The notes under the pieces were generated by a model. The model searched no databases. It saw nothing but the letters and a program-made list of their open reading frames with translations, and was not told where the DNA came from. The translations under genes were made by a program, and so were the position numbers. 32,314 nucleotides of DNA from an uncultured Prevotella sp. (GTDB lineage: Bacteria > Bacteroidota > Bacteroidia > Bacteroidales > Bacteroidaceae): NCBI GenBank assembly GCA_902798285.1, contig CADBVZ010000029.1, positions 1-32,314 of the forward strand, given 5' to 3'. Positions 5,604 through 31,530 of this stretch are shown piece after piece. The first letter of the stretch is position 1; the number at the start of each line of letters is the position of its first letter.

Positions 5604-6932
5604 ATGAAGAATTGTCCCATTTGTGGTGAATTGATCGATGAGCACCTTCAGGTGTGTCCCATTTGTGGCGAAGAAACGGGCTTCCGTCAGTCGGCTCAGA
5701 GAGCGTGTCCTTTCTGTGGTGAACTGATCGATGCTGAGGCGGCTGTTTGTCCGTATTGTGGAGAGGACGTCAAGGCCGAGGCTGCATCTGCTCAAAAAGC
5801 CTGTCCGTTCTGTGGCGAGCTGATAAATGCGAATGCAGTGGTTTGTCCCATCTGTGGGGAGAGCCTTGTTCCCCAGCCCGAGCCTGAACCTGTTCCCAAA
5901 CCGATCCCAGAGCCGACTCCCGTTCCAGAACCCGAACCGATTCCCGAGCCCGAACCGATTCCTGCTCCTGAACCAGAAGTCGCTCCGATTCCTGAACCTG
6001 AACCCGAGCCCCTTCCCGAGCCGATTGCAGCTCCTGAACCTGAGCCCGAACCAATTCCTGAGCCCGAACCTTTGGTCGAGCCAGAGCCCCTTCCCGAGCC
6101 CGAACCAGAACCGATTCCTGAGCCAGAACCCGAACCTGTTCCAGAGCCGGAACCTGAACCGATTCAAGTTCCAATCCCAGAACCTGTTTCTAAGCCCATC
6201 CCAGAGCCTGAACCCATTTCGGTTCCTGCTCCTGAGCCGACTCCCGCTCCTGAGCCCGTAAAGGTCGCTCCTTCAGCTCCGACTCCTCCATCAACACCGC
6301 CGACTCCTCCACCAGCTCCAACTCCCGAGCCCGTGAAGGTTGTTCCACCGACTCCTCCTTCAACTCCGAAGCCGACTCCCAAGTCCGCCGCTAAGCCCAA
6401 GAATGGCGCCAATTTGCTCGTTGGCTTGATCGCCATGCTGCTCGTTGTTGGTGGAATCGCTGGTGGCGTGTATTATTTCCTCTTCGCCTCCAAGGCTCCG
6501 AAGCCCGAAGATCCCAATTCGGATCAGCCCGTCGTGGTACAAACCATCTCCACGACCGACGAGGCTGCCGACGACGTGGCCCCAGTGGAAACCACAGACG
6601 TATCAGAGGATTCCGAGGATATCGATCTCACGGTGCCAGCCCTTCTGGATAGCATCAAGAGTATGCTCCCCAGTGTGAAAGGCCAGCTTGTGGCCTCGTT
6701 CCCCGACGATTCGCGTGCATGCCTTTATTATGTGGCTAATAAGAAAATCTTCTGCTACGATGCACGTCAGAATATGTCTGCTCCCCTGCCTATTAAGCAT
6801 AAAGGCATCAGGATGGATATTCTCTCAGCCCGTCTGCTGGGCAACGGATCCGCCTTGCAGATCCAGGCTAAGGACATCGAGGGCAAACAGCATACCGTCA
6901 TCTGGAACACCATGACCAATAGAGAAGAGTAA
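5604..6932 (+). CDS. Triple zinc-ribbon protein with long Pro-Glu linker and one membrane segment
   Basis: This is a membrane protein of unknown function. Three zinc ribbons occupy residues 1-88, each with two CxxC knuckles (C4/C7 with C18/C21, C35/C38 with C49/C52, C67/C70 with C81/C84) and a repeated CPxCGELID pattern. Residues of about 91-265 are almost entirely Pro-Glu, Pro-Ile and Pro-Thr repeats. A single transmembrane helix follows at about 269-295 ([20 protein letters not shown]), then an acidic linker and a 100-residue C-terminal domain. There is no signal peptide, so the zinc ribbons and the linker should be cytoplasmic and the C-terminus periplasmic. The next gene, 36 bases on, also starts with a zinc ribbon. 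Repeat codons vary (GAA/GAG, CCC/CCG/CCT), so selection on the peptide is likely. Confidence 0.85.
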
Positions 6933-20459: not shown

Positions 20460-21209
20460 TTAAATCGATCGCGATTGTAGGAAGTTCTGGAAGCCTTCAC
20501 GGAAGGCTTCTGTGACACGGATAATCTCATCGCCGATATAGATGCAGTCGTTACGATCGACGCTACGTATCTTGTTGAGCGCTACGATATATGAACGATG
20601 TACACGCATGAACTGACTAGTAGGCAGCATATCCTCGACGGCTTTCATTGTGAGATGAGTGATAAGAGGCTTGCGTTCGCCCTCAAGATAGAACATAACG
20701 TAATCCTTCATGCCTGAAACATATAGTATCTTGTCGAGTGCCACTTGGCGATACTCACCGTCGACTTTAAGAAATAAGGAATTGTTCCCGTTTGGGGTGG
20801 ACATTTGTGGGGCCGGGCTTTGCTCGGCCTCTTGCGTTTTTTCACCGCGAAGACCAAACCACTCACGCGCCTTTTCAACAGCAGCGATGAACTTGTTATA
20901 GCGGATGGGCTTCAGCAAGAAATCGAGGGCGCTTACCTCGTAACTCTCAAAGGCATATTCCTTGAAGGCCGTGGTAAAGATGATGCGTGTACCCTCTGGC
21001 AACATGTGAGCCAGTTCCATTCCATTCAAGTCTGGCATCTGAATATCGAGGAATAGCAACTGGGGTTTCAGTTGTTTGATAGCGTTGATAGCCTCAACGG
21101 AATCGGTAAACGAGCCAAGCAGCTCCAAATCGGGTGTCTTGGCAACAAACGATTCTAACAACTTGACGGCCAGAGGCTCATCATCGACTATGATACAAGT
21201 AAGTGCCAT
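20460..21209 (-). CDS. LytTR-family response regulator (first pair)
   Basis: This is a two-component regulator of 249 residues. The receiver domain (1-120) has VDDEP (8-12), phospho-acceptor LFLDIQMPDLNG (Asp55), FTTAF and LKPIRY (Lys). A Pro/Gln-rich linker follows, then a LytTR DNA-binding domain (about 145-249: LFLKVDGEYRQVALDKILYV, then FMRVHRSYIVALNKIRSV). LytTR domains bind pairs of short direct repeats one to two turns apart. The gene lies 12 bases downstream of its kinase on the same strand. Its targets may be the phased elements at 24941-25105, an inference from proximity and spacing. Confidence 0.93.
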   Translation of the reverse strand: MALTCIIVDDEPLAVKLLESFVAKTPDLELLGSFTDSVEAINAIKQLKPQLLFLDIQMPDLNGMELAHMLPEGTRIIFTTAFKEYAFESYEVSALDFLLKPIRYNKFIAAVEKAREWFGLRGEKTQEAEQSPAPQMSTPNGNNSLFLKVDGEYRQVALDKILYVSGMKDYVMFYLEGERKPLITHLTMKAVEDMLPTSQFMRVHRSYIVALNKIRSVDRNDCIYIGDEIIRVTEAFREGFQNFLQSRSI

Positions 21210-21221
21210 ATCTCTTAATTC

Positions 21222-22265
21222 TTACATTCTCAATTTAATGCGGACGTGGTAAATGTCATTCTCGAGACTCTGTTGCCACTCGTATCGGTTAGCATACATC
21301 AGATCGAGACGGCGACGGGTGTTCTCGAGACCAATACCTGAACCACTGCGATCGGCATCATCCTTGGGATAGTTGGTGTTATCGCAGGTAAAAATGAGTT
21401 CGTTCTCAGAAGCGGTAAGAGAAATAACTATCTTTGAGGGACGACTACTGCTGACACCATGTTTAAAGGCGTTCTCGATGAGTGAGATGAACAACAAAGG
21501 TGCAATCTCTATGTTCTGTTGTACGTCGAAGGTGGTATTTACTTCCGTCTTCTCGTTGCAACGTAGTTTCATCAATGATATGTAGTTGCGCATGAATTCT
21601 ATCTCGCCTTGGATGGGCACGGTTTTCTTGTTGGTCTCGTACATGGCGTAGCGCAACAAATCGGAAAGTTGGGCGATAGCATCCTGAGCAGCGTCGGGAT
21701 CGATCTGTGTGAGACTGGAGATATTATTCAGCGTGTTAAAGAGGAAGTGGGGGTTTATCTGATTTTTCAGCCAGGCTAGTTCTGCCTCGGTATTCTTGGC
21801 TTTCTCGTCCCTCAGCTGCTGACGGATGTCACGGGTGCGGATGAAATGGCGTATGCCGATAGCAATAGCAGCCACAAAGCAATTGAGCAACAGGAACATA
21901 AAGAAACCAGAAAAGAAACCAATCCACATATTGGGCGTCATCTCGGGCATTTCAGGAATGCGATCGCGGGCAAACCACAGCATCAAAAACTGGCTGTTAA
22001 GAGCTACGATAGCCAAGAGGTTGCACAAACCGAAAAGCCAGAAACGTCTCTTGAAGAATAGAAAGGGACCGAAGAGATAGAAGTTGGCGAAGTAGATGAT
22101 AAACGGCGAGTGCATGATACCCCATACCACGAAGAACGAAGTCTTAGTAGCGTGGAAATCCTGTGTGCTAAGGTATGTGGCAATGGGGAGTGCCAGCATG
22201 ATAATGACCCACACGGCAACTTGCACTAGGAGTAACCAGAGGTCTTTTCTTTCAATCTTCTTCAT
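21222..22265 (-). CDS. LytS-type sensor histidine kinase (first pair)
   Basis: This is an inner-membrane histidine kinase of the His_kinase/LytS class, 347 residues. Four hydrophobic segments lie in the first 140 residues (near 9-30, 45-72, 76-98 and 113-137). A short coiled stretch leads to the phosphoacceptor motif WLKNQINPHFLFNTLNNISS (His173). The ATPase part carries APLLFISLIENAFKHGV (N-box) and SGIGLENTRRRLDLMY (G-box). There is no separate periplasmic sensor domain, so the ligand may be sensed in the membrane. I use the ATG at 22265; a GTG at 22292 lies inside the promoter. The LytTR regulator follows after 12 bases. Confidence 0.92.
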   Translation of the reverse strand: MKKIERKDLWLLLVQVAVWVIIMLALPIATYLSTQDFHATKTSFFVVWGIMHSPFIIYFANFYLFGPFLFFKRRFWLFGLCNLLAIVALNSQFLMLWFARDRIPEMPEMTPNMWIGFFSGFFMFLLLNCFVAAIAIGIRHFIRTRDIRQQLRDEKAKNTEAELAWLKNQINPHFLFNTLNNISSLTQIDPDAAQDAIAQLSDLLRYAMYETNKKTVPIQGEIEFMRNYISLMKLRCNEKTEVNTTFDVQQNIEIAPLLFISLIENAFKHGVSSSRPSKIVISLTASENELIFTCDNTNYPKDDADRSGSGIGLENTRRRLDLMYANRYEWQQSLENDIYHVRIKLRM

Positions 22266-22273
22266 ATCGATGG

Positions 22274-22304
22274 CAAAATTACAAATAAACACTTAAAATA
22301 CAAA
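22274..22304 (-). promoter_or_regulatory. Promoter of the first LytS/LytTR operon
   Basis: On the minus strand TTTG (22304-22301) and TAATTTTG (22281-22274) are 19 bases apart. The ATG begins only 8 bases beyond the -7 box, so the transcript is expected to be leaderless or nearly so. Confidence 0.65.
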
Positions 22305-22372: not shown

Positions 22373-24862
22373 TTATTGTGGCATAGTACCATTAGTGGTT
22401 CCGCTGCCTGTACTGCCAGAGCCAACGCTGTTGATGACCTCGCCTTGCGATTGCTGCTCGATGAAATCGTTTTGAACGCGGTTGGTGTGCTGCTTGGCGC
22501 GAATCTTATTGTTACCGAAGGTGTAGCTGACGGTGAAGGTTACGCCGTAGATGGGCACTTTAACAAGGTTGTGACTGGTGAAGTTCTTACCACGACTTTC
22601 GCTCTCGATGTTAATCTTACCACCACCATTCAGGCCGAGGATACCCTGTATACCTAAAGTAAGCTTGTCGTTCAGCAGCGACTTAGAGACGCTGGCGGTG
22701 AGCAGATTGAATCCGCCGCTCCAGCCCTGCAGGGTATAGCTCTTGGTAGAGGTAATGGCGAAGGCGCTGAGTTTGAGATCCCAAGGAAGTGTCTGCTGCA
22801 GACCGATCATGGCACTGGCCGTCCATCCACTATTCTGCTGATCGAGGACATCGCTGCGTAGATCGAGATAATTCAGGCTTCCGTTGAAGAAAATTCGGGT
22901 ATCCTTGGTGAGCAGATAGTTTACATAACCGCTCAGACCGGTCTGGTGGCGCTGAACCACATTTCCGTAAGTGGTGTTGAGCAGGTTGTCGCTGTCATAG
23001 AAGCTATACTGCGAGATGGCATTGTCGACAAAGTTGTGGTGCAGGTTCAGGTTCACCATGAGCTTTGATGTGAATGCATTGTATACCAGAGAGATGTTGT
23101 GATTCTTCTCTACATCGAGTTCGGGGTTACCATAGCTGATGGCGATGGGGTTGGTCTTGTCTACATAGGGGTTGAGGTAAGAGATACCAGGACGAGAGAT
23201 TCGCATGTTGTAGGTAAGACCAATGTTAGAGCCCATACCGAGGGTGTACTGCAGACTGGCTGTAGGCACGAGGCTACCGTAGTTCTTCTTGAAATCCTCG
23301 CCATTGCCCAGATGATACTCTACATCCTGCCAAGTATACTCGTAACGGAGACCTGCCTTCAGACCAAACTTGTTCCAATTGCCAGCATACTCACCATAAC
23401 CTGCGAGGATGGAGTTTTTGTACTCGTAATCGCTACTGGAGGTTGGGTCGTAGATGCCTTTGAGATAGTACTTAGAATCAGAGGATGCGTTGTGAAGCTG
23501 CAGTTTACCACCGAGACTCAGAGTCTGACCAACGCCGAGTGGCATAGTGTAATCGAGCTGGAAAGTGTGGTTCAGCGTTTTGTCGTGATTCTCAGAATTG
23601 CGGTCGGTGAGATCAATGTAATCAGATGTGGTGCCGAAGTTGTTGGTCATATCGGTTGTAGCGGGGCTGTAGTTGAGCTGGTAAGTAAGGGCCAGCGACT
23701 GGGTGTGCTCCTTGTTGAAGAAACGCTGGTAGTCGAGACTTCCATTGAACGAGGTGCGCGAATTCTTCATGTCGGTGGTGCTGCTATAAGAGGTGATAGG
23801 TGTGAGACCAGAGGTGAGTGTGGTAAGTGAAGTGCCCTCGCTCTTCATGGTCATACTATTCACCTGAGCTGTGAGGTTCAAGGCACTCATCTCATCGATC
23901 TGATAACCCAGATTCATGGTTCCCATGGTGAAAGGAGTTTTTACGTCGTTGGTAGAGGTGAGGATCTGAGAGACACCGTTATCTTGTATCTGCTCAGTTT
24001 CTGTGGTGGTTTCGCCCGGCTTATTATAAGAGGTCATGACGTTGGCACTATAGCTGAGCTTGCCCTGCTGACCATTCAGGAAGAGGCTGGCTCCCAACTG
24101 CTTAGTACCTACTGAAGTGCGAAGTGTGCCATTGTAGCCATTCAGACTCTGTGCAGCTTGAGGATTTTGCTTGTTCATAATGATATTCAGAACACCTGCA
24201 GCTCCCTCGGCATCGTACTTGGCACCAGGGTTGGTAAGTACCTCAATACTCTTAACGGCTGTGGCGGGCATGCTCTTGAACACCATAGAGGGGTTAGAGG
24301 AGAACATAACATTTGGCATACCATCGACATATACCTTAAACGAAGAACTTCCATTAACGGATATGTTATCCTGACCATCGACTGTAACCATAGGCACCTT
24401 GCGGAGCATATCGAGTACGGTGTTCGACTTGGCATCCTCATCCTCTGCCACATTATAGCTCATCTTGTCGACCTCCATCTTTACTAGGGGCTTTTGAGCG
24501 ACAATCTCCACACCCTTCAGCATGGTGGCATTCTCTTTTATATATAAGGTGCCGAGATCAAGAGGATTCTCCTGGCCAAGAACCACATTCAACTTCAGGT
24601 CTTCTTTACCAATGCTGCTGAATACGATATCGAACTTACCCTTGCCCTTTACCTCCTGAGAGAATTGACCATCTTCCTTGGTAAGAAACATAGCCACGGG
24701 CTTATCGGTCTTGCCTGATTTGAATACACGTATGGTGGCGAAAGGCTCAGCCTCGCCAAGTGTCTCATCCATTAACACACCCTTCACGGTGGTTTGGGCC
24801 ATTGTTACCTGTGATGCTATCATCATCACTACAATTGCGAAAAATGCTTTGAACTGTTTCAT
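22373..24862 (-). CDS. TonB-receptor-like outer-membrane beta-barrel protein
   Basis: This is an outer-membrane protein of 829 residues of the OMP_b-brl (PF14905-like) group. It has a signal peptide (about 1-22, MAQ), a CarboxypepD_reg-like sandwich (TTVKGVLMDETLGEAEPFAT, about 24-100) and a plug-like domain (SYNVAEDEDAKSNTVLDMLR through LTNPGAKYDAEGAAGVLNII, about 135-230). A long barrel of alternating strands follows to near the end. The last residues are Gly/Ser/Thr-rich (GSGSTGSGTTNG) rather than a terminal aromatic. No SusD partner is adjacent. It is divergent from tolC and shares the regulatory region 24863-25153 with it. The substrate is unknown; peptide, cation or export-related roles are all possible. 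Confidence 0.9.
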   Translation of the reverse strand: MKQFKAFFAIVVMMIASQVTMAQTTVKGVLMDETLGEAEPFATIRVFKSGKTDKPVAMFLTKEDGQFSQEVKGKGKFDIVFSSIGKEDLKLNVVLGQENPLDLGTLYIKENATMLKGVEIVAQKPLVKMEVDKMSYNVAEDEDAKSNTVLDMLRKVPMVTVDGQDNISVNGSSSFKVYVDGMPNVMFSSNPSMVFKSMPATAVKSIEVLTNPGAKYDAEGAAGVLNIIMNKQNPQAAQSLNGYNGTLRTSVGTKQLGASLFLNGQQGKLSYSANVMTSYNKPGETTTETEQIQDNGVSQILTSTNDVKTPFTMGTMNLGYQIDEMSALNLTAQVNSMTMKSEGTSLTTLTSGLTPITSYSSTTDMKNSRTSFNGSLDYQRFFNKEHTQSLALTYQLNYSPATTDMTNNFGTTSDYIDLTDRNSENHDKTLNHTFQLDYTMPLGVGQTLSLGGKLQLHNASSDSKYYLKGIYDPTSSSDYEYKNSILAGYGEYAGNWNKFGLKAGLRYEYTWQDVEYHLGNGEDFKKNYGSLVPTASLQYTLGMGSNIGLTYNMRISRPGISYLNPYVDKTNPIAISYGNPELDVEKNHNISLVYNAFTSKLMVNLNLHHNFVDNAISQYSFYDSDNLLNTTYGNVVQRHQTGLSGYVNYLLTKDTRIFFNGSLNYLDLRSDVLDQQNSGWTASAMIGLQQTLPWDLKLSAFAITSTKSYTLQGWSGGFNLLTASVSKSLLNDKLTLGIQGILGLNGGGKINIESESRGKNFTSHNLVKVPIYGVTFTVSYTFGNNKIRAKQHTNRVQNDFIEQQSQGEVINSVGSGSTGSGTTNGTMPQ

Positions 24863-24903: not shown

Positions 24904-24934
24904 CAAAGATATGGTGATTATCCTCTGACTCAAA
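24904..24934 (-). promoter_or_regulatory. Promoter of the outer-membrane barrel gene
   Basis: On the minus strand TTTG (24934-24931) and TATCTTTG (24911-24904) are 19 bases apart. The gene start follows 41 bases later. Two copies of the TTCGACGA element begin 7 bases 5' of the -33 box. Confidence 0.78.
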
Positions 24935-25021: not shown

Positions 25022-25105
25022 TTCGATTTTATCGACGAAATAGACCTTTTTATCTACGAAATACGGCTTTTTATCGATTTTATTTGTTTTATATCAATGA
25101 AAAAC
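25022..25105 (+). repeat. Tandem 21-bp operator-like repeats before tolC
   Basis: Consecutive 21-base units begin at 25022, 25043 and 25064, with a fourth, weaker unit from 25085. Each ends in a version of ATCGACGAAATA: ATCGACGAAATA (25031), ATCTACGAAATA (25052), ATCGATTTTATT (25073), ATCAATGAAAAA (25093). The first three are preceded by T-rich bases. The array runs from 5' of the -33 box into the spacer of the tolC promoter. A 21-bp period places the copies on one DNA face, as for LytTR regulator sites. Confidence 0.65.
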
Positions 25106-25114
25106 GTATCTTTG
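25083..25114 (+). promoter_or_regulatory. Promoter of the tolC-macAB-two-component operon
   Basis: TTTG (25083-25086) and TATCTTTG (25107-25114) are separated by 20 bases, a consensus Bacteroidota promoter. The ATG is at 25154. The leader carries the small inverted repeat TTATC...GATAA near 25125-25140. Confidence 0.82.
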
Positions 25115-25153: not shown

Positions 25154-26482
25154 ATGAGAAAGGTATTATTTATTTTATTCCTGCTACCTTTATCGGTTTC
25201 TGCGCAGAAGCAGTGGACCTTGCAGGAGTGTATCGATTACGCCATGGCCAACAACATTACACTTCAGCAGTCGAAGCTGAAAAAGGAGAGTGCCACGGAG
25301 GAACTGAAGGGTGCCAAGGCCGCCCTGCTTCCTACACTGAGTGCGTCGACCAACCAGAGTTTTGGTTACCAGCCTTGGAAAGATACGGGTATGTCGTACG
25401 TCACTAACGGAACGGTGAATACGAAGGTTGACAAAACATCATACAATGGTTCGTACTCACTGAGTGGTCAGTGGACTGTGTGGAACGGCAACCGTAACAT
25501 CAATACCATCAAGCTCGACCAGCTGTCGGAGGAGCAGGCAGAACTATCCACCAAGGAGACGGCCAACTCTATCCAAGAGCGTATTGCACAGATATATGCC
25601 CAGATTCTTTATTTGGCGGAGAATGTGAAGGTAAACGAGCAGATGCTGGAAACAAGTAAGAAAAACGAGGAACGAGGGAAAGAAATGCTGAGCGTAGGTA
25701 AAATGTCGAAAGCCGATGTTGCTCAGCTATCAGCCCAAAGGGCCAACGATGAATATACGATTGTAGAGGCCCAGAGTCAACTGATGAACTATGAACTACA
25801 GCTGAAGCAGTTGCTGGAGATTACAGACGAGGAACGATTCCAGGTGGCTATTCCCGAGATAACCGACGAGCAGGTGCTGGCTCAGATTCCTGAGTTGCAG
25901 ACCGTTTACGAGCAGGCCTTGATGAGCCGCCCGGAGATAGAGCGCTCGCAGTTGGCTATTAAGAGCAGTGGCGTGAATGTGGCACTGGCCAAAGCTGGAT
26001 GGATGCCAAGCGTGAACCTGACGGGAGGTATCACTACCTCAACCAACTCACTAAGTGGCAATGGATGGGGTGATCAGATCAAGAGTAACGTGAATACATC
26101 GTTGGGCGTAGGCGTAACGGTGCCCATCTACGACGGACGCTCCACCAAGACATCGGTGAACAAAGCCAAGATTCAGCAACTGCAGGCTCAGTTGGACTTA
26201 CAGGATCAGCAGAAGACTCTCTACTCTAATATCCAGCAGTTCTGGCTGAATGCATGGACTAATCAGCAGAAATATCAGGCAGCAAAGAGTAGTGTGGAGA
26301 GTGCTCAACAGAGCTACGATTTGCTCTCAGAGCAGTTCCGCTTAGGATTAAAGAACATCGTGGAGCTGATGGCAGGAAAAGACAATCTGCTCTCACAGCA
26401 ACAGAGTCAGTTGCAATCGAAGTATCTGGCACTGTATAACCAACAGATGTTGGAGTTCTATCAGAACGGGACACTTCGCTAA
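25154..26482 (+). CDS. TolC-family outer-membrane efflux protein
   Basis: This is the outer-membrane channel of a tripartite exporter, 442 residues. A signal peptide (about 1-18, SVSAQ) is followed by the family start WTLQECIDYAMANNITLQQS. Two halves of long amphipathic helices with strand segments follow, in the usual TolC pattern (first half near ATEELKGAKAALLPTLSAS, second near VNVALAKAGWMPSVNLTGGI). The C-terminal helix ends with LALYNQQMLEFYQNGTLR. It is first in the operon, with the adaptor 35 bases downstream, and is driven by the repeat-associated promoter. The substrate is not known. Confidence 0.93.
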   Translation: MRKVLFILFLLPLSVSAQKQWTLQECIDYAMANNITLQQSKLKKESATEELKGAKAALLPTLSASTNQSFGYQPWKDTGMSYVTNGTVNTKVDKTSYNGSYSLSGQWTVWNGNRNINTIKLDQLSEEQAELSTKETANSIQERIAQIYAQILYLAENVKVNEQMLETSKKNEERGKEMLSVGKMSKADVAQLSAQRANDEYTIVEAQSQLMNYELQLKQLLEITDEERFQVAIPEITDEQVLAQIPELQTVYEQALMSRPEIERSQLAIKSSGVNVALAKAGWMPSVNLTGGITTSTNSLSGNGWGDQIKSNVNTSLGVGVTVPIYDGRSTKTSVNKAKIQQLQAQLDLQDQQKTLYSNIQQFWLNAWTNQQKYQAAKSSVESAQQSYDLLSEQFRLGLKNIVELMAGKDNLLSQQQSQLQSKYLALYNQQMLEFYQNGTLR

Positions 26483-26517
26483 TGAATATTGAAGAATGAA
26501 TAAAGAATAATGAAGAT

Positions 26518-27750
26518 ATGAAAAAGATTGGAAAGAAAGGATGGATAGCCATCGGTTGTGTGGTGGTAATCATCATTGTGGCATTGAAATGCACAGGCGG
26601 AAAGAAAGAAGAGAAGGTGTCATTTGATACCGCCAAGGTTGAGAACACCAATATCCAGACAAGCATCACAGCTACGGGTACCATAGAACCTGTGACCAGT
26701 GTAACCGTTGGTACACAGGTATCTGGTATTGTGAGCCATCTCTATGTAGACTATAATTCGGTTGTAAAGAAAGGACAGGTTATTGCAGAACTGGACCGCA
26801 CGAACCTAATCAGTGAACTGAACACAGCAAAGGCCAATCTTTCAAGTGCCCAGAGTTCGGCTGCCTATGAGCTCTCTAATTATAATAGGTATAAGACTCT
26901 TTATGATAAGGGCCTGGTAAGTGCCGATGAGTTTGAGAGTGCCCAGCTCAGTTATCTGAAGGCTAAAGAGCAGGTGAATACCTCGCGCGAGAGTGTGCAG
27001 AAGGCCCAGACTAACCTCGGATATGCAACGATTACCTCACCTATCGATGGCGTGATTCTTTCGAAAGCTGTAGAGGAAGGCCAGACGGTAGCAGCCTCGT
27101 TCAATACCCCAGAGCTCTTTGTAATAGCCCAGGATTTGACAAATATGCGCGTGATAGCCGACATTGACGAGGCTGATATCGGTGGCGTGAAGGAAGGTCA
27201 GCGCGTAAGTTTCACGGTAGACGCCTTCCCAGACGACCATTTTGAGGGACAGGTGACACAGGTGCGCCAGCAGGCTACCACCGAGAGTAATGTGGTGACT
27301 TACGAGGTGGTGATCTCGGCTCCCAATAACGACCTGAAGCTGAAGCCTGGACTTACGGCCAACGTGACCATCTACACAATGGAGAAGAACAATGTGCTTG
27401 CCGTGCCCGCCAAGGCCCTCCGCTTCCAACCCAACGACGCTTTCCTGAAGAAGGGGGAGACCATTGACGACTGTGAGGGCGACCACAAGCTCTGGACCAA
27501 GGAGGGCAACGTGTTCAAGGCCCACAAGGTGGAGATTGGCACCAGCAACGGTATGATGACGGAGATTACCAGTGGCATAGAGCCAGGTACTGAGGTGTTG
27601 ACAGACTTCAATATCTCTGGAGGTGCTCCTGTGGAGGCTCAGCAGGGAGGTAACCCCTTTATGCCGCGTCCGGGAGGCAACAGAAATAACAATAACAACA
27701 ACAAGAGTGGACAGGCTGGCCAGAGTGGCGGAGCCCCGCAAAGGAGATAA
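26518..27750 (+). CDS. MacA/HlyD-type periplasmic adaptor
   Basis: This is the membrane-fusion protein that bridges the inner-membrane ABC transporter and TolC, 410 residues. An N-terminal membrane anchor lies at about 9-24. The lipoyl half-motif (SVTVGTQVSGIVSHLYVDYN, about 62-81), a helical hairpin (LNTAKANLSSAQSSAAYELS to QKAQTNLGYATITSPIDGVI) and beta-barrel/MP domains follow (LKPGLTANVTIYTMEKNNVL). The C-terminal 40 residues are disordered, with an Asn run and Gly/Gln. The MacB ATPase gene starts 4 bases after the stop. The similarity is to MacA rather than RND adaptors, consistent with the neighbours. Confidence 0.92.
   Translation: MKKIGKKGWIAIGCVVVIIIVALKCTGGKKEEKVSFDTAKVENTNIQTSITATGTIEPVTSVTVGTQVSGIVSHLYVDYNSVVKKGQVIAELDRTNLISELNTAKANLSSAQSSAAYELSNYNRYKTLYDKGLVSADEFESAQLSYLKAKEQVNTSRESVQKAQTNLGYATITSPIDGVILSKAVEEGQTVAASFNTPELFVIAQDLTNMRVIADIDEADIGGVKEGQRVSFTVDAFPDDHFEGQVTQVRQQATTESNVVTYEVVISAPNNDLKLKPGLTANVTIYTMEKNNVLAVPAKALRFQPNDAFLKKGETIDDCEGDHKLWTKEGNVFKAHKVEIGTSNGMMTEITSGIEPGTEVLTDFNISGGAPVEAQQGGNPFMPRPGGNRNNNNNNKSGQAGQSGGAPQRR
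27741..27746 (+). promoter_or_regulatory. Ribosome binding site fixing the MacB ATPase start
   Basis: AAGGAG lies 8 bases before the ATG at 27755 and overlaps the end of macA. Strong Shine-Dalgarno sites are unusual in this phylum. It supports the ATG rather than the longer frame from 27623 inside macA. Confidence 0.65.
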
Positions 27751-27754
27751 GACT

Positions 27755-28513
27755 ATGGCAGAAGACAATAGAAAAGTCGTCATTGAGTTGCAGAACGTGA
27801 AGCGCTACTTCCAAGTGGGCTCTGAGACGGTGAAGGCTTTGCGAGGTGTGTCGTTCAAAATATATGAGGGCGAGTTTGTCACCATCCAGGGTACTTCCGG
27901 CTCAGGCAAGTCGACACTGCTTAACCAACTCGGCTGTCTCGATACCCCTACTAGCGGAGAGTACTTCCTCGACGGCATCTCGGTAAGAACGATGTCGAAA
28001 TCACAGCGTGCGCATTTGAGGAACCGTAAGATTGGCTTTGTATTCCAGAATTACAACCTGTTGGCAAAGACCACGGCAGTGGAGAATGTAGAGTTGCCGT
28101 TGATGTATAATTCTGAATATAGTGCCTCGCAACGTAAGGAAAAAGCCATCGAGGCCCTGAAGTCTGTTGGCTTAGGCGACCGCTTGTATCATAAGTCGAA
28201 TCAGATGTCGGGTGGACAGATGCAACGTGTAGCCATTGCTCGTGCCCTGGTAAACGACCCTGCAGTGTTGCTGGCAGACGAGGCGACAGGTAATCTTGAT
28301 ACGCGAACCTCGTTTGAAATGCTTGTGCTCTTTCAGGAACTTTATAAGCAGGGACACACTATCATTTTTGTGACCCACAACCCTGAGATTGCGGAATATG
28401 CTAGTAGGAACATCAATCTGCGTGATGGTAAGATTCGCGAGGATACTGTTAATACGAACATCAAGTCGGCTGCTGAGGCATTGGCCAAGTTGCCAACTCC
28501 ACAGGATGACTGA
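27755..28513 (+). CDS. MacB-type ABC transporter ATP-binding protein
   Basis: This is the ATPase of a type VII (MacB/LolD-like) ABC transporter, 252 residues. Walker [16 protein letters not shown], the Q-loop in [20 protein letters not shown], the signature [15 protein letters not shown], Walker [14 protein letters not shown] and the H-loop FVTHN are all complete. In E. coli MacB this domain is fused to the permease; here the two are separate genes 74 bases apart, as in many Bacteroidota. It should couple ATP hydrolysis to the FtsX-like permease at 28588. Confidence 0.94.
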
Positions 28514-28587: not shown

Positions 28588-29805
28588 ATGAATATACTCA
28601 ATTTATTTAAGGTAAGTCTGAGGGCTGTGGCCAACAACAAGATGCGCTCTTTCCTCTCGATGCTGGGTATCATCATCGGTGTAGCTGCTGTGATCATCAT
28701 GATGTCTATCGGTCAGGGCTCGAAGGAGAGTATCCGTGCTGAACTCTCTACGATGGGTACCAACCTGCTGACTATACGTCCAGGTGCCGATATGCGTGGT
28801 GGTGTACGTCAGGACCCGTCGAGCATGCAGACCCTGAAGATGGCCGACTATGAACGCATTGTGCGTGAGAAACGCTTTGTGACAAAAGTATCGCCCGAGG
28901 TAACGGCTAGCGGACAAGCCATCTATGGTAATAACAATACCAATGCCTCGATGTATGGTGAGAGTATTGACTACCTCGATATTAAACAATGGCCCGTTGA
29001 AGAAGGTGAGTGTTTTACTGAGGAAGATATTAAGAAAGCTGCCAAGGTCGTGGTGGTAGGAACAACTATCGTAAAAGACCTCTTTGGTGAGAATGTCGAT
29101 CCTATCGGCAAGACAATCCGCTTCAAGAGTATTCCCATGCGTATCATTGGTGTACTGAAGTCTAAGGGCTACAACTCATGGGGTATGGACCAGGATAATG
29201 TTATCATTGCTCCCTATACCACAGTGATGAAACGTATTGCTGCCCAAACGTATTTTTCGAGCATCGTCTGTTCGGCTGTTACCGAGGAACTTTCAGATGC
29301 GGCTATTGAGGAACTTACTCAGATCCTCCGCGACAATCATAAGCTGAAAGACGAGGCTGATGATGACTTCACTATCCGTTCTCAGGCCGAGATGATGGAA
29401 ACGATGTCGAGCACGATGGATACGGTAACGATAATCCTCGTGGTAGCAGCCGCCTTCTCATTACTTGTGGCTGGTATCGGTATCATGAACATCATGCTGG
29501 TGAGTGTGACGGAGCGTACGAAGGAGATAGGTCTACGTATGGCCGTAGGTGCTACAGGACCCGTGATTTCGCTTCAGTTCCTTATCGAATCGGTATTGAT
29601 CTCTGTGACGGGAGGATTGATAGGCGTTCTTGTGGGTACGGGTGTCAGCGCTTTCGCGTCTTCGTTTGGCATGCCGTCAAGTGTACCTGCTTGGAGCATC
29701 TATGTGTCGTTCTTGGTGTGTGTGTTTATCGGTGTGCTTTTTGGCTATATTCCAGCACAGAAGGCCGCTAATATGGATCCTATAGAAGCTATCCGTCATG
29801 AATAA
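28588..29805 (+). CDS. MacB-type ABC permease (FtsX family)
   Basis: This is the membrane subunit of the exporter, 405 residues. Helix 1 lies at about 22-41 (FLSMLGIIIGVAAVIIMMSI). The large periplasmic MacB_PCD domain (about 42-270) follows, then three helices of the FtsX domain (from TVTIILVVAAAFSLLVAGIG; then SLQFLIESVLISVTGGLIGV; then WSIYVSFLVCVFIGVLFGYI). The ending PAQKAANMDPIEAIRHE is the family hallmark. This fold transmits mechanical force to TolC-MacA rather than moving substrate through the membrane. The kinase gene overlaps its last 8 bases. Confidence 0.94.
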   Translation: MNILNLFKVSLRAVANNKMRSFLSMLGIIIGVAAVIIMMSIGQGSKESIRAELSTMGTNLLTIRPGADMRGGVRQDPSSMQTLKMADYERIVREKRFVTKVSPEVTASGQAIYGNNNTNASMYGESIDYLDIKQWPVEEGECFTEEDIKKAAKVVVVGTTIVKDLFGENVDPIGKTIRFKSIPMRIIGVLKSKGYNSWGMDQDNVIIAPYTTVMKRIAAQTYFSSIVCSAVTEELSDAAIEELTQILRDNHKLKDEADDDFTIRSQAEMMETMSSTMDTVTIILVVAAAFSLLVAGIGIMNIMLVSVTERTKEIGLRMAVGATGPVISLQFLIESVLISVTGGLIGVLVGTGVSAFASSFGMPSSVPAWSIYVSFLVCVFIGVLFGYIPAQKAANMDPIEAIRHE

Positions 29806-30823
29806 ACATTTGGCGGGCATGTGTCATCTAGCCCTTTGGGCATTCCTCTTCCTGTCGCCCCTGACGTTTTGGAGAGGAACGGGTATCAAGTTCGTACAGT
29901 ACTTGATGTACTGTATGCAACCTCTTATGATCATGATAGTTTTCTACTTGAACTATCTGTATCTTGCTCCAAAGTTTTTTGTGGCTGGCAAACATCGTTA
30001 CGACTTGCTGATTAACTTGGTGCTTGTAACTGTACTTGGAATTTTCCTACACAGTTGGTCGGATTATACAAACAGTATATATGTGGTGCCAGGACAACGA
30101 CATTTGGATTTCTACGATGATTTTGCCCGTACATTGCGTGATAGTATCAATTTGGCCATCTTTGCTGTCGCTGCTACAGCGCTGGCATTGGCACGTCGGT
30201 GGGTAACGGCAGACCAGAAACTCAAAGAATCTGAGGCTGCACGAGCCAAAGCAGAGTTGTATAACCTGCGTTCACAGATTAATCCCCATTTTCTGCTAAA
30301 TACGCTTAATAATATCTATGCGTTAACGGCTTTCGATCAGACACGTGCGCAGAATGCCATTCAACAGCTCTCCAAGATGCTTCGTCATATGCTCTATGAC
30401 AACCAAGAGTCGTTAGTTTTGTTGCAGGACGAGATACAGTTTCTTGACAACTATGTAAGTCTGATGAAGATCCGTCTGGCTCAGAATGTTGAGGTAATAT
30501 TTGAGAAGGAGGTGGAGGATCCTCATGCGAAAGTTGCTCCGTTACTCTTTATCTCTTTGATTGAAAATGCCTTTAAACATGGCGTCAGTCCTATTGCCCC
30601 CAGTTATGTACATATCAAACTGACCCAGAAGACAGGGGAACTTCATTTTGTAATTGAGAATACATACCATCCAAAGGATACTAAGGACTTTAGTGGGCAT
30701 GGTATTGGACTCCAACAGGTGCAGCGACGTCTGGAATTGGCATATGAAGGACGCTACGAGTGGACAAAAGGTATAAGTGAAGATGGGAAAAGCTATTTTT
30801 CAACTATTAATATTAAACTATGA
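29798..30823 (+). CDS. LytS-type sensor histidine kinase (second pair)
   Basis: This is a membrane histidine kinase of the His_kinase/LytS class, 341 residues. Hydrophobic segments lie near 8-25, 34-57, 69-86 and 117-134. The phosphoacceptor motif is LRSQINPHFLLNTLNNIYAL (His164), the N-box APLLFISLIENAFKHGV and the G-box GHGIGLQQVQRRLELAY. It overlaps the permease stop by 8 bases, so translation is probably coupled to the pump. It is clearly a paralogue of the kinase at 21222. The arrangement suggests a sensor tied to the exporter's state or substrate, as in pump-associated sensing modules, which is an inference. Confidence 0.92.
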   Translation: MNKHLAGMCHLALWAFLFLSPLTFWRGTGIKFVQYLMYCMQPLMIMIVFYLNYLYLAPKFFVAGKHRYDLLINLVLVTVLGIFLHSWSDYTNSIYVVPGQRHLDFYDDFARTLRDSINLAIFAVAATALALARRWVTADQKLKESEAARAKAELYNLRSQINPHFLLNTLNNIYALTAFDQTRAQNAIQQLSKMLRHMLYDNQESLVLLQDEIQFLDNYVSLMKIRLAQNVEVIFEKEVEDPHAKVAPLLFISLIENAFKHGVSPIAPSYVHIKLTQKTGELHFVIENTYHPKDTKDFSGHGIGLQQVQRRLELAYEGRYEWTKGISEDGKSYFSTINIKL

Positions 30824-31530
30824 TAATAAAGTGCGCCATTATTGACGACGAGCCCCTGGCTTCAGGTCTGTTAAAAAGTTATGTGACAAAAACTCCTTAT
30901 TTGGAACTGAAAGGGGAATACAATAGTGCCCTTCAGGCTATGAAGGAATTGCGTGAGGATCCTGTAAATCTTATTTTCCTTGATATTCAGATGCCTGAAC
31001 TCTCAGGAATGGAGTTTGCAAAGGTTCTGCCTAAGAAAACGAGGATTATCTTTACGACGGCCTTTCCGCAGTATGCCATCGAGGGTTTCAGGGTTAATGC
31101 CCTCGACTATTTGTTGAAGCCCGTTTCTTATGAGGATTTCCTTGCTGCAACCGATAAAGCCTTGGAGTGGTTTACCAAGATGCAAAAACAGGATATCTAT
31201 ACGCGTGACCGCATCATTTATGTGAAAAGCGATTATCGTTTGCTGCGTATTAGTCTCGATGATATACTCTACGTGGAGGGACTGAAGGATTACGCCCGCT
31301 TTTTCTTGAAAAATGGTGAGAACGTCCAAACACTCATCTCGATGAAGAAACTCGACGATTTCCTGCCTAGGCCAGAATTCCTCCGCACCCATCGTTCCTA
31401 TATTGTTCATATGTCTGCCATCCAGGCCGTAGAGCATAATCGTATCGTATTCGGAGAAATATATATCCCTGTTACTGATAATTACAAGGACGAAGTTCAA
31501 AGCTACTTGGATGATCATACTTTGATATAA
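30820..31530 (+). CDS. LytTR-family response regulator (second pair)
   Basis: This is a response regulator of 236 residues. The receiver has IDDEP (8-12), LIFLDIQMPELSG (Asp55), FTTAF and LKPVSY (Lys). The LytTR DNA-binding domain covers about 130-236 (RIIYVKSDYRLLRISLDDIL, then FLRTHRSYIVHMSAIQAV). The ATG overlaps the kinase TGA (ATGA). It is a paralogue of the regulator at 20460, with a shorter linker. It is the last gene of the operon from 25154, so autoregulation through the repeats before tolC is plausible. Confidence 0.93.
   Translation: MIIKCAIIDDEPLASGLLKSYVTKTPYLELKGEYNSALQAMKELREDPVNLIFLDIQMPELSGMEFAKVLPKKTRIIFTTAFPQYAIEGFRVNALDYLLKPVSYEDFLAATDKALEWFTKMQKQDIYTRDRIIYVKSDYRLLRISLDDILYVEGLKDYARFFLKNGENVQTLISMKKLDDFLPRPEFLRTHRSYIVHMSAIQAVEHNRIVFGEIYIPVTDNYKDEVQSYLDDHTLI

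Follow-up and report, generated by a model that had tools for sequence, protein, structure and literature searches.

An older consensus for LytTR binding sites reads [TA][AC][CA]GTTN[AG][TC]. The agr promoters P2 and P3 are divergently arranged and self-regulated, and RcoM1 carries its sensor and its LytTR domain together in one CO-sensing protein. According to the accessible part of PMC4847170, almost all LytTR regulators recognize repeats of 9–11 nt with 11–13 nt between them, and no consensus is common to their sites. For RcoM1 and CoxC, the available portion of PMC11347149 describes LytTR operators made of three repeats; those of CoxC lie 18–21 bp apart and serve in repression. No described operator for a LytTR response regulator of the Bacteroidota was found in the accessible parts of the open-access literature.

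The array studied here resembles the operators of RcoM1 and CoxC in that direct repeats occur three times, at steps of about two helical turns, upstream of or overlapping the −35 region, LytTR binding being observed there and predicted here (PMC11347149, accessible part). The sequence of the RcoM1/CoxC repeats (TTCNNGCA / TTNNNGCN; same part of that source) was, in contrast, not seen in the array: inspection for this type of repeat found no GCA in 25022–25105 and no TTNNNGC at the three sites. CoxC also unites a CO sensor and a LytTR domain in one protein (PMC11347149, in part), whereas this Prevotella locus encodes a kinase and a response regulator. It thereby resembles YpdA/YpdB, the LytS/LytTR-type two-component system of E. 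coli, in which a kinase is paired with a LytTR regulator and direct repeats of about 10 nt recur at about two turns; unlike the two copies of GGCATTTCAT used by YpdB, there are three sites of another sequence, at the Bacteroidota-type promoter that drives the operon of the regulator itself (PMC4847170, available part). The layout also recalls agr P2/P3, where the portion of PMC4227749 that is accessible describes one intergenic region with two promoters, each immediately preceded by two direct repeats that a LytTR dimer occupies; AgrA, however, is one regulator for both promoters, whereas the divergent operons here come with separate kinase/LytTR pairs and separate candidate operators. For both candidate operators, sequence, period and distance to the promoter are given, and each is linked to a kinase/regulator pair of its own. 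They offer a test of LytTR action at −33/−7 promoters and allow regulon prediction in Prevotella genomes.

Organization of the Locus

The window, i.e., the whole stretch of 32,314 nucleotides that was analyzed, is one of the 80 contigs that make up a 3.04-Mb genome. The array sits in a 291-bp intergenic gap, with 70% A+T by base counts, that separates two divergent operons (Table 1). The right operon comprises, in this order, tolC and the genes encoding HlyD, an ABC ATPase, MacB, a PF06580 histidine kinase and a LytTR response regulator; in the left operon, a TonB-receptor-like outer-membrane barrel is followed by a PF06580 histidine kinase and a LytTR response regulator. The earlier note had read the last gene of the right operon as a LytTR regulator, and PF04397 was indeed found in its product (30820–31530), so that a potential cognate regulator of the array closes the same operon. 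The promoter consensus of the Bacteroidota is TTTG (−33) and TAnnTTTG (−7), and an inverted repeat (I1) includes both −7 boxes of the intergenic region, facing apart.

Table 1. Coordinates of the genes, promoter elements and candidate operator sites in the window.
Feature	Position	Strand	Remarks
Left LytTR response regulator	20460..21209	−	
Left histidine kinase (PF06580)	21222..22292	−	Domain scan covered 21222–22262
TonB-dependent-receptor-like outer membrane barrel (OMP_b-brl_3)	22373..24862	−	
−7 box TATCTTTG, divergent left promoter	24904..24911	−	
Left candidate operator, proximal CGTCGAAA	24940..24947	−	36 bp from left −7 box
Left candidate operator, distal CGTCGAAA	24962..24969	−	22 bp from proximal copy
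Candidate operator site 1 TCGACGAAATA	25032..25042	+	T at −75 from first base of −7 box; conserved in relatives
Candidate operator site 2 TCTACGAAATA	25053..25063	+	T at −54; conserved in relatives
Candidate operator site 3 TCGATTTTATT	25074..25084	+	T at −33; overlaps start of −33 box
−33 box TTTG, tolC promoter	25083..25086	+	By inspection; −24 to −21 from −7 box
Weak fourth core ATCAATGAAAA	25093..25103	+	In −33/−7 spacer, 20 bp past third; doubtful
−7 box TATCTTTG, tolC promoter	25107..25114	+	Bacteroidota type
tolC-type outer membrane efflux protein (OEP)	25154..26482	+	Domain scan
HlyD-type membrane fusion protein	26518..27750	+	
ABC transporter ATPase	27752..28513	+	Start approximate
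MacB-type permease	28588..29805	+	
Right histidine kinase (PF06580)	29798..30823	+	
Right LytTR response regulator	30820..31530	+	PF04397; proposed binder of sites 1–3

Three Repeats at a 21-bp Period

The cores were read as ATCGACGAAAT at 25031, ATCTACGAAAT at 25052, ATCGATTTTAT at 25073 and ATCAATGAAAA at 25093, with 11, 10, 7 and 8 of 11 letters, respectively, identical to the first. Tandem Repeats Finder reported 25027–25077 with a period of 21, 2.4 copies and a score of 74. Dinucleotide shuffles of the 291-bp intergenic region served as the null model for the repeat tests: a 16-base stretch matching at 15/16 one period on occurred in 2/1000 shuffles when any of the periods 10–40 was allowed and in 0/1000 at 21–22 bp, and the best three-copy score was reached in 5/300 at any period and in 0/1000 at 21–22 bp. 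These results confirm, with three sites, the tandem 21-bp operator-like array that the earlier note had described at the tolC promoter.

Taken as 21-base units, the first and the second share 17/21 positions, and the third shares 12/21 with each of them; common to the three sites is mainly TC(G/T)A, the sequences otherwise differing. The sites are direct repeats with steps of 21 and 21 bp, within the 18–21 bp range of CoxC, and when read as 9-mers (at 25032, 25053 and 25074) they leave 12 nt between them, a spacing found in LytTR operators. Their positions at −75, −54 and −33, beside the −33 element, are likewise those expected of a LytTR operator. By eye, the old consensus fits site 2 of some relatives (L001 and L009) at 8/9 on the reverse strand and the sites of the window at about 7/9 at best.

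Conservation in Relatives and Association with the Regulator Gene

The best 80 of 111 tolC loci were taken as relatives, and the closest tolC relatives among these 80 were Prevotella records, many of them labelled rumen. Operons with a LytTR regulator gene are designated RR+ and those without RR−. In most RR+ promoters, anchored on the −7 box, a TCGAAGAAT-like sequence is found at −75, a TCTACTAAC-like one at −54 and a TCTATTTT-like one at −33. A 26-position consensus, built from the relatives after inspection of the loci, scored 21/26 in the window and 26/26 in L009; as background in the same sequences, 31 of 2,115,910 positions reached 17 and none reached 18. A score of at least 17 upstream of tolC was obtained in 42 of the 51 RR+ loci versus 1 of the 18 RR− loci (Fisher p 8e-9, kinship ignored), with 11 loci excluded as undecidable because they are cut off short of the gene's place, and a threshold of 18 gave 37/51 versus 1/18. 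The repeats are thus conserved before orthologous tolC genes, which settles in favor of the earlier note one half of the test it had set, namely that either a lack of such conservation or a lack of binding by both regulators would speak against its reading.

Kinship was taken into account on the tolC tree, where seven independent pairs contrast a locus with the regulator and one without it; the array was concordant in 5.7 of these pairs on average and discordant in 0 (median p 0.03, range 0.03–0.125). When this tree was rooted at its midpoint, arrays were found on both sides of the first split.

The geometry of the array is near-fixed, with exceptions. Across 43 arrays, those of the 42 RR+ loci plus that of the window, the distance between site 1 and the −7 box was 75 bp in 31 cases, 76 bp in 11 and 97 bp in one (L012). 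For the analysis of columns, 71 of 81 sequences had a usable −7 box, of which 50 RR+ (window included) and 13 RR− promoters were used and 8 undecidable ones excluded. The C columns at −74, −53 and −32 held 1.44, 1.25 and 1.56 bits in RR+ promoters versus 0.19, 0.19 and 0.75 bits in RR− promoters, the −7 box used as anchor being present in both alike. At least two of the three C were at their exact places in 36/50 RR+ and in 1/13 RR− promoters (L010), the 14 RR+ failures being partly due to a one-base shift. Among triples of C or G at lags of 10–33, the best was C at lag 21 from −74 (31/50 promoters; runner-up 10/50). Lag 21 also had the highest profile score, followed by 42, although against column shuffles this support is modest, with p 0.02 when lag 21 is taken alone and no significance for the highest score among all lags (p 0.7).

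The earlier note had deduced graded occupancy from the decay of the repeats toward the promoter. Such a decay is present in the window but is not shared by the family: the TC of the proximal site 3 was retained in 38/50 aligned RR+ promoters, the C and A of site 1 in 32/50 and the TC of site 2 in 30/50, so that across relatives site 3 is kept at least as well as the other two and graded occupancy finds no support. The place of site 3 is kept mostly as TCTATTT, and the TTT of the −33 box was found in 43/50 RR+ versus 6/13 RR− promoters.

The same note counted three to four consecutive units, of which three stand at 21 bp; the fourth is weak and lies 20 bp on. Taken in the 21-base register, it matches the others at only 6, 5 and 4 of 21 positions, and about 0.9% of shuffled three-position slots (421/46,500) contained an 8/11 core match. 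CGA was found at this place in 21/50 RR+ versus 2/13 RR− promoters. Being off register, located in the promoter spacer and accompanied by CGA in part of the relatives only, it is kept as a doubtful fourth site.

Nine of the 51 RR+ loci scored below 17, and 14/51 below 18. Among the nine, sites 1 and 2 were retained by eye in L022, L028 and L029; no −7 box was found in the stretch searched before tolC in L071 and L074, and the full array was not recognizable in L007, L021, L025 and L027. Conversely, L010 retained the array at 19/26 though the right kinase and LytTR genes were not found, the left kinase, regulator and barrel being present. A takeover by the left regulator, a recent loss or an assembly fault may possibly explain this exception; many of the relative loci are metagenome-assembled, and assembly errors could account for single exceptions such as this one. 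In L010, an aldolase match begins shortly past macB.

Pattern Searches in Genomes

A pattern of the three sites with fixed gaps and at most 3 mismatches was searched, blind to gene content, in 200 same-genus genomes, with the reversed pattern as control. Thirteen matches in 13 genomes were obtained versus none for the control, and all 13 precede a tolC homologue, a TAnnTTTG box standing 75 bp from site 1 in each. The 12 operons readable to their end all hold kinase and LytTR homologues, the 13th contig stopping too early; the window itself exceeds 3 mismatches and is outside this set. According to a 60-base probe, 8 of the 13 matches are the same DNA as among the best 80 tolC loci and 5 are not, and in two of these five the MacB is only 54–60% identical to that of the window. 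Since the 26-position consensus was chosen after the loci had been seen, the gene-blind test weighs more, although it is not wholly independent because its pattern was derived from loci that overlap its match set. Together, the co-occurrence (42/51 versus 1/18) and the 12/12 gene-blind operons support the proposed tie between a LytTR-type operator and the LytTR gene of the operon.

A loose two-site pattern in 149 genomes gave 9 matches in 9 genomes versus 13 in 11 for the control; outnumbered by the control, it is as a whole no better than chance, and one of its loci, L090, was rejected as an array. The genome of the window itself contains seven LytTR gene matches. No clear pair at 21–22 bp was seen by eye before the kinase/LytTR operon of contig C20 or the LytTR genes of C36 and C9, the latter two genes having no visible receiver domain. 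Direct repeats of F. johnsoniae reported in the available part of PMC10197871 were set aside as unrelated, being located inside tolC.

A Second Candidate Operator at the Divergent Promoter

The two left copies are separated by 14 nt as 8-mers and by 13 nt as 9-mers. The segment 24940–24969 is a candidate for a second, distinct LytTR-type operator, which the first reading of this DNA had missed. When CGTCGAAA-N13-15-CGTCGAAA was searched in 200 same-genus genomes, 37 matches in 32 genomes were found versus 16 in 9 for the control. Thirty of the 37 were examined, including a copy from the window's own genome (contig C7) and excluding that of the window. A −7 box stood 36–37 bp from the nearer copy in 27/30 (absent at L103, L104 and L119), and 25 of these 27 had, within the covered stretch, a gene homologous to that of the left barrel, kinase or regulator, none being found there at L111 and L128. 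When 53 of the 59 genomes from other families in the 149-genome set were searched, one match, at 23 bp, was obtained versus 4 in 3 genomes for the control; this single match, fewer than the control, gives no sign of the left operator outside the genus. Among the tolC-locus sequences, the left pair (at most 2 mismatches) was found in 10 of the 11 flagged with left genes versus 0 of the 70 without, the exception being L014, where the left-barrel match sits at the far edge of the stretch. These counts suggest that each operator follows its own regulator.

The copy on C7 belongs to a remnant of the left operon, with an identical pair at an identical distance. On this contig (L099, 7240–9700), pieces of a LytTR regulator were observed on both strands around other genes, and a left-type operator with a −7 box stands ahead of one truncated piece. 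In six loci (L109, L110, L111, L112, L122 and L125), a left-type operator precedes a gene whose product is small (115–155 aa), seems to be secreted and starts MKKM..ALVAM. This gene is followed by a left-type kinase match in L110, L112, L122 and L125 and by a regulator match in L109, with no left-type match in reach past it in L111; L128 has a different small protein and no left-type match in reach.

Regulatory Model and Alternatives

The anatomy of the array fits LytTR regulators, and we therefore propose the right regulator as its ligand: sites 1–3 are probably a three-repeat LytTR-type operator of the protein encoded at 30820–31530, whichever the sign of its action. We infer protein binding, phosphorylation and the sign of regulation along the following lines. 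The adjacent PF06580 histidine kinase would phosphorylate the right regulator, whose molecules would lie side by side on one helix face, one per 21 bp, with the proximal molecule adjoining the −33 box. The bound regulator would then alter the activity of RNA polymerase at the −33/−7 promoter, and since this promoter is that of its own operon, the pump operon would control itself; the pump can thus probably control its own production via the regulator at the operon's end. The divergent operon would be wired likewise, through the regulator that it encodes and a different operator of two sites 22 bp apart.

Given such an operator, activation, i.e., positive self-regulation, is mildly preferred because most LytTR regulators activate, according to the available part of PMC11347149, and repression would be the somewhat less likely sign. 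Considered by itself, the possibility that the right regulator represses, blocking the polymerase until a signal arrives, is a tentative one, and it is a variant of the operator model, not exclusive of it. It is favored by the overlap of site 3 with the −33 box, by a core promoter that looks complete and by CoxC, a repressor whose three direct repeats overlap the −35 box (PMC11347149, in part); RR+ promoters, with their frequent −33 TTT, are not weak-looking. The conservation of that TTT may, however, reflect in part its place at the end of site 3, and for most LytTR-type regulators activation from a site upstream of −35 is stated (PMC11347149, same part).

We consider it improbable that the left regulator (20460–21209) is the main ligand of the array, or that both regulators bind it, with cross-control of the two operons as a result. 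TCGACGA on the + strand is common to right site 1 and both left copies in the window, and the left copies match the right core at 8/11 (24941) and 10/11 (24963); the array of L010 also persists without the right regulator where the left one is present. However, 34 of the 42 RR+ array loci are without left genes in the covered stretch, which is short on that side in some of them, and the genes could be elsewhere; the left pair, moreover, tracks the left genes, and numerous LytTR positions with at least 85% fixation within each group (52 and 9 sequences) distinguish the left from the right domain, in line with two DNA specificities. Finally, an origin of the repeats as A+T-rich sequence arising by chance, or a role as upstream tracts contacted by polymerase with no specific regulator, as the A+T content of the region and the T-runs in every unit might suggest, is hardly credible and largely refuted by the shuffles (0/1000 at 21–22 bp), by conserved letters that include C and G at set places, by the 17/18 loci without the regulator that score under 17 and by the gene-blind matches (13 versus 0 for the control; 13/13 before tolC).

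Returning to the right regulator on sites 1–3, the best reading of the intergenic region is that it would contain two neighboring self-regulated LytTR circuits. Their operators share the TCGA core and differ in period (22 bp left, 21 bp right), site number and flanks. Relative to the respective −7 box, the TCGA cores stand at −56/−34 on the left and at −75/−54/−33 on the right; an alignment of the two operators on CG(A/T)CGAAA, which sets them about half a helical turn apart, was rejected, and the alignment on the TCGA core, within 1–2 bp, appears preferable. The TCGA core being palindromic, the right repeats could be read in either orientation. In this genome, right sites 1 and 2 are closer to the left sequence than are the sites of the relatives. 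It is conceivable, if rather unlikely, that two back-to-back circuits are kept apart by operator sequence and geometry and may in this genome cross-talk, linking the receptor and pump operons. A PDB sequence search with the right regulator matched 112 distinct sequences, and the 60 matches listed correspond to its receiver part.

Other Short Repeats in the Window

The gap between tolC and the HlyD gene is spanned by a short tandem repeat of TAATGAA-like units (26480–26527). Short tandem repeats were also observed at 5869–6188, inside the gene at 5604–6932, where they encode a proline/glutamate-rich stretch; by eye, the start of this gene is zinc-ribbon-like.
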